Below, piece after piece: positions 27,333 to 34,006 of a stretch of 64,000 nucleotides of DNA. Numbering within the stretch: the stretch's first letter is position 1; each line of letters starts with the position of its first letter. The position numbers were made by a program, and so were the translations under genes. Location of the stretch: NCBI GenBank assembly GCA_017535325.1, contig JAFXUC010000139.1, forward strand, positions 1 to 64,000, written 5' to 3'. The notes beneath the pieces were generated by a model. It saw only the letters and a list, made by a program, of their open reading frames with translations, ran no database searches and was not told the DNA's origin. The stretch comes from Bacteroidales bacterium (GTDB taxonomy: Bacteria; Bacteroidota; Bacteroidia; Bacteroidales; UBA3824).

Positions 27333-29823
<2,491 letters not shown>

Positions 29824-29896: not shown

Positions 29897-29928
29897 TTTG
29901 CAAATCTTAATATAAAACTCTATTTTTG
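29897..29928 (+). promoter_or_regulatory. Promoter of the fic gene
   Basis: Full consensus: TTTG at 29897-29900, a 20-base spacer, TATTTTTG at 29921-29928. Predicted start of transcription falls at about 29934-29936, on the left edge of the operator array. Confidence 0.8.
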
Positions 29929-29932
29929 CGGC

Positions 29933-29992
29933 AAAAGGTGGTAGTACTACCACCTTTTTTGGGGTGGTAACTTACCACCTTTTATGGTGGTA
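29933..29992. promoter_or_regulatory. Triple GGTGGTA operator array
   Basis: A 26-base perfect palindrome (29933-29958; half site AAAAGGTGGTAGT), a second perfect palindrome GGTGGTAACTTACCACC (29963-29979), and a lone half site GGTGGTA (29986-29992). The half sites share GGTGGTA and directly follow the promoter. This looks like a binding array for a dimeric winged-helix repressor; the Fic protein encoded 18 bases downstream has such a domain, so autoregulation is the simplest reading (inference). Confidence 0.75.
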
Positions 29993-30009: not shown

Positions 30010-31086
30010 ATGAAAGAATTAAATAAACTGTACGAAAAATGGATGTCGTTGCAACCGTTGAGCGAAAAACAGCAAGATATTTTGAGTAAAAAATTTACTG
30101 TTGAATACAATTATAACAGTAATCATATTGAGGGTAATACTTTGACATACGGTCAGACAGAATTGTTGTTGATGTTTGGAACGGTAAGCGGGGAAAACCA
30201 TTTGCATGATTTTGTTGAGATGAAAGCAAGTCAGGTCGGACTTAAAATGATGAGTGAAGAAGTTAAAGCGGAAAATATGCCTTTAACACAAAATTTTATC
30301 CGCACATTGCATAAAACTTTGCTAAGAGAAGATTACACCGTTTACCGAAATCTTCCGGGCGGGGTTACTACATCTTTTATAATTCATGCCGGACAATACA
30401 AAACTCGTCCAAACAGTGTTATAACACGTTACGGCGACCGTTTTGAATATGCTTCACCCGAAGAGACGCCCGCTTTGATGACTTCGCTCGTTGACTGGTA
30501 CAACAAGGAGGAAAAGCGCGGCAAACTTTCGCCCGTGGAGTTGGCGGCTTTGTTTCATTATCGTTATATTAGAATCCATCCGTTTGAGGACGGTAACGGC
30601 AGAATTGCGCGTTTGTTGGTTAATTATATTTTTTCACGGCACAATTGGCCGATGATTGTTGTTAGAAGCAGAAATAAAAACGAATATTTGGAAGCCTTGC
30701 ATCAAACGGATATGCTTGTAGGTACTGCACCGTCCGACGGAGCTGCGGCAACTATTTCGCAAATAGAACCGTTTCTGAAATATTTTAAGGAATTGGTAAA
30801 ACGGGAACTTCAATACAATATTTCGTTTGTTGAAAAAAGCGGTGAAAATATTTGGTGGTATGACGGTCAGCAGTTGGAGTTCCGGTCTCCGAATGTTCCG
30901 AAATTACTCTCAATTTTGCAGCAAAATCCGAGCATAACGTATGCTGAGCTTTCAAAAGAGTTGGGTATCAATACTTCTGCCGTTCAAAAACTTTTGACGG
31001 GATTAAAAGAAAAAGGTTATATTCAAAGGCGTAACCATGAAAAAATGTGGTATGTTTCGGCGGTTTCGTCTTTATTAAAAGCGTAA
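30010..31086 (+). CDS. Fic-domain protein with C-terminal winged helix
   Basis: Fic enzymes usually transfer AMP from ATP to target hydroxyls. The 358 residues hold an N-terminal inhibitory motif SNHIEG (S37, E41: (S/T)xxxE(G/N), class II autoinhibition). The complete Fic motif HPFEDGNGRIAR is at 190-201, with catalytic H190 and acidic D194. The flap region is GGVTTSFIIHAGQ near 117-129. A winged-helix DNA-binding domain is at about 298-350 (ITYAELSKELGINTSAVQKLL, then EKGYIQRR). The palindromic array on its promoter suggests it represses itself. The stop at 31086 is 4 bases from the gldA-like ATG, so both probably share one transcript. Targets are unknown. Confidence 0.9.
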   Translation: MKELNKLYEKWMSLQPLSEKQQDILSKKFTVEYNYNSNHIEGNTLTYGQTELLLMFGTVSGENHLHDFVEMKASQVGLKMMSEEVKAENMPLTQNFIRTLHKTLLREDYTVYRNLPGGVTTSFIIHAGQYKTRPNSVITRYGDRFEYASPEETPALMTSLVDWYNKEEKRGKLSPVELAALFHYRYIRIHPFEDGNGRIARLLVNYIFSRHNWPMIVVRSRNKNEYLEALHQTDMLVGTAPSDGAAATISQIEPFLKYFKELVKRELQYNISFVEKSGENIWWYDGQQLEFRSPNVPKLLSILQQNPSITYAELSKELGINTSAVQKLLTGLKEKGYIQRRNHEKMWYVSAVSSLLKA

Positions 31087-31090
31087 AAAA

Positions 31091-31921
31091 ATGTCAGTTA
31101 AAGTAGAAAATCTTACAAAACTTTACGGTGAAAACAAAGCCGTTGACAATATAAGTTTTAACATAAATTCGGGCGAGGTTGTGGGCTTTTTGGGTCCTAA
31201 CGGCGCAGGAAAAAGTACAACCATGAAAATCATTACCGGTTGTATTGCAAGCGATTCCGGCGAGGTTTTTATTAACGGCGTCAACATCAAAGACGATATG
31301 AATGCCTTAAAAAAAACTATCGGTTATCTTCCCGAAAACAATCCGCTTTATCTTAACATGTACGTCAAAGAGTATCTCGAATATTCCGCGCAGATGTATT
31401 TGCAAAAAAGCGAAGTTAAAAAAGCAGTTGAAGCGGCGGTTGAAGCGGTCGGTCTCGGCGAACATCAGTTCAAGAAGATAGGGGAGTTGTCAAAAGGTTA
31501 CAAACAAAGAACTGGAATTGCCCGTGCAATGGTTCACAATCCGTCTATTTTGATTCTTGACGAGCCTACAACAGGTCTTGACCCAAATCAAATCGTTGAA
31601 ATCCGAAATCTTATAAAAGAACTCGGAAAAGAAAAAACCGTCATACTTTCAACGCATATCATGCAGGAGGCTGAGGCGGTCTGCGACCGTGCGGTTATTA
31701 TCAACAAGGGCAAAATTGTTGCCGACGACACGCTCAAAAACCTCAAAGCCCCGAAATCGTCGGATTCGATAACCGTGGAGTTTGGTCTCGGCGGCAATTT
31801 CAGCGGCAATTTTGAGGAAATGATAAAAGCGTTTGCCGAAAAAGAAGGGCTTTCTGTTTTGTCGATAACAAAGAGCAAAGGAAATCTTGAAAATATTTTT
31901 AGGGAACTTACGCAGAAATAA
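31091..31921 (+). CDS. gldA: GldA-like ABC transporter ATP-binding protein
   Basis: ATPase of an ABC exporter. In gliding Bacteroidota, GldA works with GldF and GldG. The 276 residues have Walker A GPNGAGKST (35-43), Q-loop near YLPENNPLY, signature ELSKGYKQRTG, Walker B ILILDEPTTGLD and switch His in STHIMQEAEA. The segment ENNPLYLNMYVKEYLEY after the Q-loop is characteristic of GldA. No permease (GldFG) gene is adjacent: ilvE follows. It lies 4 bases after the fic gene with no visible promoter of its own. The symbol rests on overall likeness; another Bacteroidota NatA-type ATPase is possible. Confidence 0.75.
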   Translation: MSVKVENLTKLYGENKAVDNISFNINSGEVVGFLGPNGAGKSTTMKIITGCIASDSGEVFINGVNIKDDMNALKKTIGYLPENNPLYLNMYVKEYLEYSAQMYLQKSEVKKAVEAAVEAVGLGEHQFKKIGELSKGYKQRTGIARAMVHNPSILILDEPTTGLDPNQIVEIRNLIKELGKEKTVILSTHIMQEAEAVCDRAVIINKGKIVADDTLKNLKAPKSSDSITVEFGLGGNFSGNFEEMIKAFAEKEGLSVLSITKSKGNLENIFRELTQK

Positions 31922-33030: not shown

Positions 33031-33060
33031 AAAAGCGTGCTAAAAAATGCACGCTTTTTT
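33031..33060. terminator. Bidirectional terminator between ilvE and the second Fic gene
   Basis: Arms AAAAGCGTGC (33031-33040) and GCACGCTTTT (33049-33058), with A and T runs on both sides. Confidence 0.88.
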
Positions 33061-34006
33061 ATTCAGATTTTTCAATATGAAAATAACCGCCGCTGCGAAG
33101 CGGGCCTCTAAATTCTACAAGTCCTTGTTTTCTTAACGTTCCTATTGTCCGTTGGAGTTTTATAAAACTTACCTGTTGTACAAACTCCTTGATTTGCATA
33201 ATTTTGATGCCGGGATTCTCTTGTATTGCTTTAAGTACTGTTTCACTGCAATCCACGTTTCTTAAATGACGTTTTTTATGTGCGCTGTAAGTGTCTTTTT
33301 CGCTTTTGAAAAGTATGCTCTGACTTGACAAGGCGCATTTTGCAATAAAATTTGTAAAGTCTTCGGTCAACTCTTTGCTTTCTTTTATCAGACGGTCATA
33401 TTCGGGCTTAACGTCGGCGGGGATAATTACAGGCGTAAACTTTCGCCGTAAAACGCCCAAATTCATTATAAGCCGCGCCATTTTGCCGTTGCCGCCTTTA
33501 AACGGGTGTATGTAAATGTATTCGTGATATGCCTTTGCCGCAAACCTCATAATGTTTTCTTCGGAGTCATCGCTGTTGAACCATTCCAAAAATTTTTTCA
33601 TTTTCAGGGCTATGACCTTGTTTTTGCCCTCCGGATATTTGCCCGCTACAAAGTCCGGCGTGCGCGAATGAAGGGTTTTATGAAGAAATTTGATGTTGTC
33701 TTCCGTTATTTCCTGTTTGTCTATGAATTGAAAAATTCTTTCGTATGCGTCATATTGTTCCAAAATTTCGTTTCCTGCGGCGGTTTCGTCTTCGGATTCA
33801 GCAAAACCGTTTTCAATTACGTTTTTGACGGTTTGTTTCGTTACCGTCGTCCCGCTTAATGAAAGGCTGCTGTAAACAAACGGAACAGCATATTTCTCTT
33901 TCAGCGCGTTGAAGAATTTCTTCTCCTCGCCGCATTTAAAAGAATAATTGTCCCTGTTTTGTGCAAATTCTGACGCTGCCGTTTCAATATTGATTAGTGT
34001 TTCCAT
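33059..34006 (-). CDS. Divergent Fic-domain protein with altered active-site motif
   Basis: A 315-residue Fic-fold protein. The motif reads HPFKGGNGKMAR (H167 to R178). Catalytic His is kept, but the residue that is normally Asp/Glu and holds Mg2+ is Gly171, and the first Arg is Lys175. The N-terminal inhibitory segment reads SSLSLSG at 46-52, where most relatives have SSxIEG, so the inhibitory Glu is Ser51. The C-terminal tail after about 255 has a winged-helix look (NPGIKIMQIKEFVQQVSFIKL, then GTLRKQGLVEFRG when taken as two helices). It may be a non-AMPylating Fic or a regulator. It sits alone, convergent with ilvE. The fold call is good; activity is unclear. Confidence 0.82.
   Translation of the reverse strand: METLINIETAASEFAQNRDNYSFKCGEEKKFFNALKEKYAVPFVYSSLSLSGTTVTKQTVKNVIENGFAESEDETAAGNEILEQYDAYERIFQFIDKQEITEDNIKFLHKTLHSRTPDFVAGKYPEGKNKVIALKMKKFLEWFNSDDSEENIMRFAAKAYHEYIYIHPFKGGNGKMARLIMNLGVLRRKFTPVIIPADVKPEYDRLIKESKELTEDFTNFIAKCALSSQSILFKSEKDTYSAHKKRHLRNVDCSETVLKAIQENPGIKIMQIKEFVQQVSFIKLQRTIGTLRKQGLVEFRGPLRSGGYFHIEKSE

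Follow-up and report, generated by a model that had tools for sequence, protein, structure and literature searches.

Here we describe a probable operator in front of a fic gene from a gut bacterium of the Bacteroidales, found in a window of 64,000 nucleotides (the whole stretch of DNA that was analysed). The palindromes at the start of this gene very probably form the operator of the winged helix (wHTH) carried by the Fic protein itself, dedicated to autorepression of fic. We assign them to the Fic protein because they are conserved in front of homologues, their half-site letters covary with the recognition helix, and they hold a fixed register on the promoter; the sites and these three properties are read directly from the DNA, and together they come near the most that sequence can offer for pairing a protein with its operator. 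A sequence-only reading had predicted an own-wHTH operator laid out for autorepression, and conservation, helix covariation and promoter position now lend that prediction strong support.

The features of the locus are collected in Table 1. The primary sigma factor of Bacteroidota has the consensus TTTG / TAnnTTTG (PMC7366714). The sequence-only reading had given a TTTG-N20-TATTTTTG promoter, palindromes of 26 and 17 bases and a lone half-site, and every detail was confirmed by reading the sequence and by a repeat search, in which the 13-nt arms of O1 were 100% complementary. GGTGGTA is common to O1, O2 and the lone half-site, and the half-sites of GGTGGTA palindromes are separated by a spacer of 3-4 bp. 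O1 is expected to cover the transcription start, and autorepression would be the natural consequence of an operator in such a repressor-type position.

Table 1. Features of the fic locus and neighbouring genes in the window.
Feature	Position	Strand	Details
-33 promoter element TTTG	29897..29900	+	read directly
-7 promoter element TATTTTTG	29921..29928	+	20 bases after TTTG
Operator O1, 26-bp perfect palindrome AAAAGGTGGTAGTACTACCACCTTTT	29933..29958		half-sites 29937-29943 and 29948-29954
Operator O2, 17-bp palindrome GGTGGTAACTTACCACC	29963..29979		8-nt arms, one central base between
Third half-site, lone GGTGGTA	29986..29992	+	6 bp past O2
fic gene	30010..31086	+	358 aa; ATG at 30010; ORF and domain matches
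Winged helix (about residues 299-345)	30904..31044	+	profile match and model
711-aa protein gene	27688-29823	+
ABC-transporter ATPase gene	31091-31921	+
Second fic gene	33059-34006	-	315 aa

The fic product bears the signatures of a class II Fic protein and is potentially active. The Fic core is matched with an E-value of 9e-21 (Pfam Fic 9.2e-21), and the Fic motif HPFEDGNGRIAR at residues 190-201 corresponds to the HPFx(D/E)GNGRxxR signature, with all positions invariant or nearly so in the family. A class II inhibitory-type motif, (S/T)xxxE(G/N), is present N-terminally as SNHIEG (residues 37-42), of which I40, E41 and G42 are invariant across 51 sequences. The AlphaFold2 model has a mean pLDDT of 73 overall and about 90 in the wHTH; residues 32-50 are of low confidence, and the inhibitory helix there is only putative. 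Winged-helix profiles match residues 298-345 (HTH_24 at 3.7e-10, and MarR), so that both domains of the Fic enzyme with a C-terminal winged helix described earlier are borne out by profile matches. In the model, the recognition helix comprises residues 322-335, with Ser323 and Gln326 near its start. A WWYDG beta hairpin (residues 281-290), almost invariant in the wHTH-Fic family, lies between the Fic domain and the wHTH and may serve in dimerisation or in contact between the two domains.

Within the window, GGTGGTA-N2-6-TACCACC matched only O1 and O2, with 0 matches in 100 dinucleotide shuffles, and exact matches in the 3.7-Mb genome were likewise O1 and O2 only. When up to 3 mismatches were allowed, no other site in the genome had fewer than 2 and one had 2. 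A relaxed palindrome pattern applied to 15 genomes matched fic promoters and elsewhere occurred at the rate of its reversed control. No conserved neighbour, partner or antitoxin gene was found beside 22 homologues. Given the control-level rate elsewhere and the lack of a conserved neighbour gene, the regulatory loop looks private to fic.

All same-genus wHTH homologues (L004-L008 and L015) have GGTGGTA/TACCACC-type sites before the ATG, with that of L008 being degenerate and L015 ending after residue 84; the palindromes do not go missing upstream of close homologues. Such a site also precedes L011, which belongs to another family and has lost its C-terminus at a contig end. No operator was found upstream of Fic homologues without the wHTH (L009, L010 and L012-L014), of which L009 and L010 have other, longer C-termini. 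A scan of genome contigs added 80 full-length homologues, which come from isolates and metagenome assemblies of Bacteroidales, and sampling 393 genomes within the order yielded about 25 more loci; the relatives are mostly from metagenome assemblies. Full-length members were confined to Bacteroidales in a draw of 396 genomes across the phylum, and none were found in the viral contigs scanned.

Operators in this larger set were called by a GT-core score with control windows, which replaced a per-locus comparison of the longest palindrome with shuffles, a test with little power when sites span 17-18 bp and the DNA is rich in A+T. Using this finder, which assumes a GT core chosen after the motif was known, a GGT-centred promoter palindrome exceeded the 99% shuffle level in 91/110 Bacteroidales Fic-wHTH homologues and the 95% level in 100/110, versus 0/291 control windows (600-1100 bp farther upstream) at the 99% level. 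The co-occurrence of palindromes with fic-wHTH genes that the sequence-only reading anticipated is therefore found, but GGTGGTA is not the sole motif, as most homologues use GGTTGTA, GGTGGCn, GGTATAC and others. For this reason a perfect-motif scan of 395 genomes of the class, which returned scattered single GGTGGTA palindromes in no obvious pattern, is too blunt. Among the 19/110 members without a call at the 99% level, weaker or asymmetric sites are visible in L094, L141, L163 and L164; no operator was seen in L078/L082 (Glu326), L116 or L167, nor in L215 from a later draw. L169-L171 form a divergent group without the operator.

The homologues share one palindrome build, AAAGGTnnnn-spacer-nnnnACCTTT, spanning 17-18 bp, within which the half-sites are clade-specific: GGTTGTA in the largest clade, and GGTGGCn, GGTATAC, GGTAGCC/GGTGGCC, GGTGGAC and others elsewhere. 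Base 6 of the half-site follows residue 326. Gln occurs with T in 137/140 half-sites (C in 2, A in 1), Arg or Lys with C in 26/30 (R-C 12, R-T 2; K-C 14, K-A 2), and Asn with A in 11/12 (T in 1). Base 4 follows residue 323, where Ser occurs with G 69 times and A 5 times, Ala with T 52, A 9 and G 1, Thr with T 36 and G 8, and Leu with A 2. Gln and Asn usually contact adenine, and Lys and Arg guanine, and the base that is read may be on either strand; the observed pairings agree with these contacts.

Because the GGTTGTA clade dominates the raw counts, we weighted by clade in a covariation scan over every alignment column (99 sequences, effective number 18). The top-ranked column was residue 326 for base 6 (normalised MI 0.48, against 0.24 for the runner-up) and for base 7 (0.45 against 0.23). 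For base 4 it was residue 323 (0.26 against 0.20), which also led for base 5 by a narrow margin (0.26 against 0.24). On a tree of the Fic domain (residues 1-265 only), the residue-326 class switches about 10 times, and 9/10 independent contrasts are in the predicted direction with 0 opposite; this is a quick tree with few strongly supported branches, and only 3 of the contrasts are on strongly supported (starred) branches. The residue-base rule was set down before further loci were fetched, and in these it predicted 51/56 half-sites (K-C 19/20, Q-T 29/32, N-A 3/4). Exceptions to the code are L075, L132, half of L161 and L212, and L073, which has a different palindrome.

Several clades vary this design. 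The Arg326 clade (L101, L104, L105, L109, L111, L112) has two different palindromes, GGTGGCn near -110 and a second, GGTTACA...AATAACC, near -46. Members of the Lys/Asn326 'KQLRQ' clade (L073, L074, L081, L086, L127) have a palindrome that extends outward as ACGTTYAAAGGT...ACCTTTRAACGT, and upstream of the L073 fic gene is an entirely different 32-bp hairpin. Self-AMPylation at Ser323 of the recognition helix was considered as a family-wide mechanism and is unsupported, since this residue is Ala or Thr in the GGTTGTA clade.

The operators also sit in fixed registers on the promoter. TAnnTTTG was found within 200 bp of the start in 86/99 homologues, compared with 20/267 control windows. In 29 loci, the window included, the operator lies over the transcription start, centred 21-24 bp past the -7 box. 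In another 40 loci, the GGTTGTA-type clade, it lies over the -33 region, centred 29-32 bp before the -7 box, with 30 of them at exactly 30. The -33 TTTG is present in 0/38 of the GGTTGTA clade, as if the operator had taken the place of the -33 element. In 13/31 GTGGTA-type loci, a third half-site lies at exactly 6 bp, so that the half-sites run right-left-right in steps of 10-11 and 13 bp; the window combines such a triad with one additional full palindrome. One subclade (L141, L163, L200) carries an asymmetric triad in two copies.

Binding, dimer use, cooperativity and repression are what we infer for these sites, and a mechanism could run as follows. The start of helix 322-335 would enter the half-site AAAGGTGGTA, where invariant parts of the winged-helix domain would read the conserved AAAGGT, residue 323 would specify base 4 and residue 326 would specify base 6 (Gln-T, Lys/Arg-C, Asn-A). 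One palindrome would hold the two wHTH units of a dimer, its half-sites being 10-11 bp apart, or one helical turn. O2 and the third half-site would take further units, the next being placed 13 bp on. Units over the start site would block the promoter and keep expression of this single AMPylase gene low, in a closed autoregulatory loop for which the genome appears to offer no other clear target. Fic activity or self-AMPylation could conceivably control the binding, as the sequence-only reading suggested.

Three other explanations have to be weighed against autorepression by the Fic protein. The palindromes could act in the transcript, as hairpins of an intrinsic terminator or attenuator or as a block to translation, rather than as protein-binding DNA. 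O1 followed by TTTTTT does score as terminator-like at the expected 5' end of the transcript, and genome G603 has an operator-like palindrome with a T-tract directly after the fic stop codon. However, the GGTTGTA clade has its palindrome some 30 bp before the -7 box, where it would be untranscribed, so a hairpin is not the general function; single third half-sites at a fixed 6-bp spacing form no local hairpin alone, and covariation of the half-sites with two recognition-helix residues is left unexplained. On these three points we reject the attenuator reading, and we consider control at the RNA level highly improbable. It is also highly unlikely that the operator is owned by an unlinked transcription factor while the Fic wHTH has another job. 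Proteins with a wHTH sometimes bind DNA without sequence preference, and CbFic2 was studied on random DNA, but here, throughout the family, the operator letters follow the recognition helix of the Fic protein itself, the site is essentially confined to fic in the genomes searched, and no conserved neighbour gene is there to encode another regulator.

A reading closer to the preferred one is that the Fic protein binds the operator and activates its own promoter, or both activates and represses it. The GGTTGTA-clade operator is centred at a class II activator position on promoters that lack the -33 TTTG, so activation in place of repression is conceivable there. In the clade of the window, by contrast, the operator follows the -7 box, lying on the start site and beside a full TTTG-N20-TAnnTTTG promoter, where activation is hard to picture, and CccR, the nearest studied case, represses. 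We regard activation, alone or combined with repression, as quite unlikely.

CccR of Yersinia pseudotuberculosis has a C-terminal HTH after the Fic domain and represses its own gene by binding palindromes in that gene's promoter (PMC9755527). The sequence-only reading cited no described operator of its form, but autorepression through palindromes by a Fic protein with a C-terminal HTH had already been reported. CccR is a precedent for autorepression by a Fic-HTH protein, with different DNA and geometry. The window protein shares the C-terminal HTH after the Fic domain that characterises autorepressors of this kind, placed at about residues 299-345 compared with 295-346 in CccR, as well as a palindromic site in its own promoter, which covariation suggests is matched to its own helix. 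The CccR operator is AGATAATCAT-N26-ATGATAATCT, with half-sites 26 bp apart, attributed to DNA-binding helices 70 Å apart (PMC9755527). In contrast, the window has GGTGGTA half-sites with a 3-4 bp spacer, in tandem palindromes with a third half-site, and the CccR sequence and spacing are not matched. CccR is also secreted, as a T6SS effector that has many targets, whereas the window protein bears no sign of secretion.

A fold search with the model of the window protein ranked BT_2513 first, followed by FICD, CbFic2 and SoFic. Among solved structures, BT_2513 of Bacteroides thetaiotaomicron (PDB 3cuc) comes closest for the Fic core (residues 3-272, E 3e-98), but the match stops before the wHTH. 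CbFic2 of Coxiella burnetii (matched as 8cil) is likewise class II, with an N-terminal inhibitory motif and a C-terminal HTH through which DNA binding alters AMPylation/deAMPylation; random DNA was used and no operator was described (PMC10628234). CbFic2 also has an N-terminal DUF4172 domain, and Pfam reports none in the window protein. SoFic (Sofic) of Shewanella and E. coli is anti-phage (PMC3667792, PMC12249575), and its DNA binding had not been shown as of PMC10628234. The window protein shares its Fic and wHTH architecture and its fold (3zcn/3eqx), and the PADLOC SoFic model matches residues 20-356 with 119 bits, but the NCBI SoFic equivalog cut-off is missed widely, at 30.4 of 550 bits. 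No defence context was found for the window fic gene. Given the PADLOC match and the distant equivalog score, we treat phage defence as no more than a lead.

DNA-binding tails are common on Fic proteins, and CccR is the only one with an operator in the literature searched. For about 100 genes across many Bacteroidales species, we can now predict where the tail docks and which two residues read which bases. With a recognition code predicted, "Fic with an HTH" becomes a regulator that can be put to the test, and the operators are ready-made DNA for assays of binding, structure and AMPylation on DNA. The control of Fic activity by DNA binding, claimed for CbFic2, becomes directly testable with a defined ligand. 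A speculative and rather doubtful extension is that solitary Bacteroidales fic genes are one-gene modules resembling toxin-antitoxin systems. Each would repress itself through a private operator that tracks its helix and insulates paralogues; DNA occupancy would be coupled to AMPylation/deAMPylation, and a signal (phage, stress, ATP) at the Fic site would free the promoter.

Operator-like palindromes, AAAAAAGGTGGTAAACTTACCACCTTTTTT and AAAAGGTGGTAAGATACCACCTTTT, also occur downstream of genes at L206 (G603:C3, just past the fic stop codon) and L205 (G012:C176:3506); they look like intrinsic terminators made from operator sequence. In the window, a second, different Fic gene with the Fic motif HPFKGGNGKMAR lies 2 kb downstream; it does not appear to share the operator, as no GGT-type palindrome precedes it. 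The ABC-transporter ATPase gene begins 5 bp past the stop codon of fic and could share a transcript with it, under control of the same operator, an arrangement not found in L004. The 711-aa protein encoded upstream of fic combines a GH10 xylanase with an esterase domain in one fusion.
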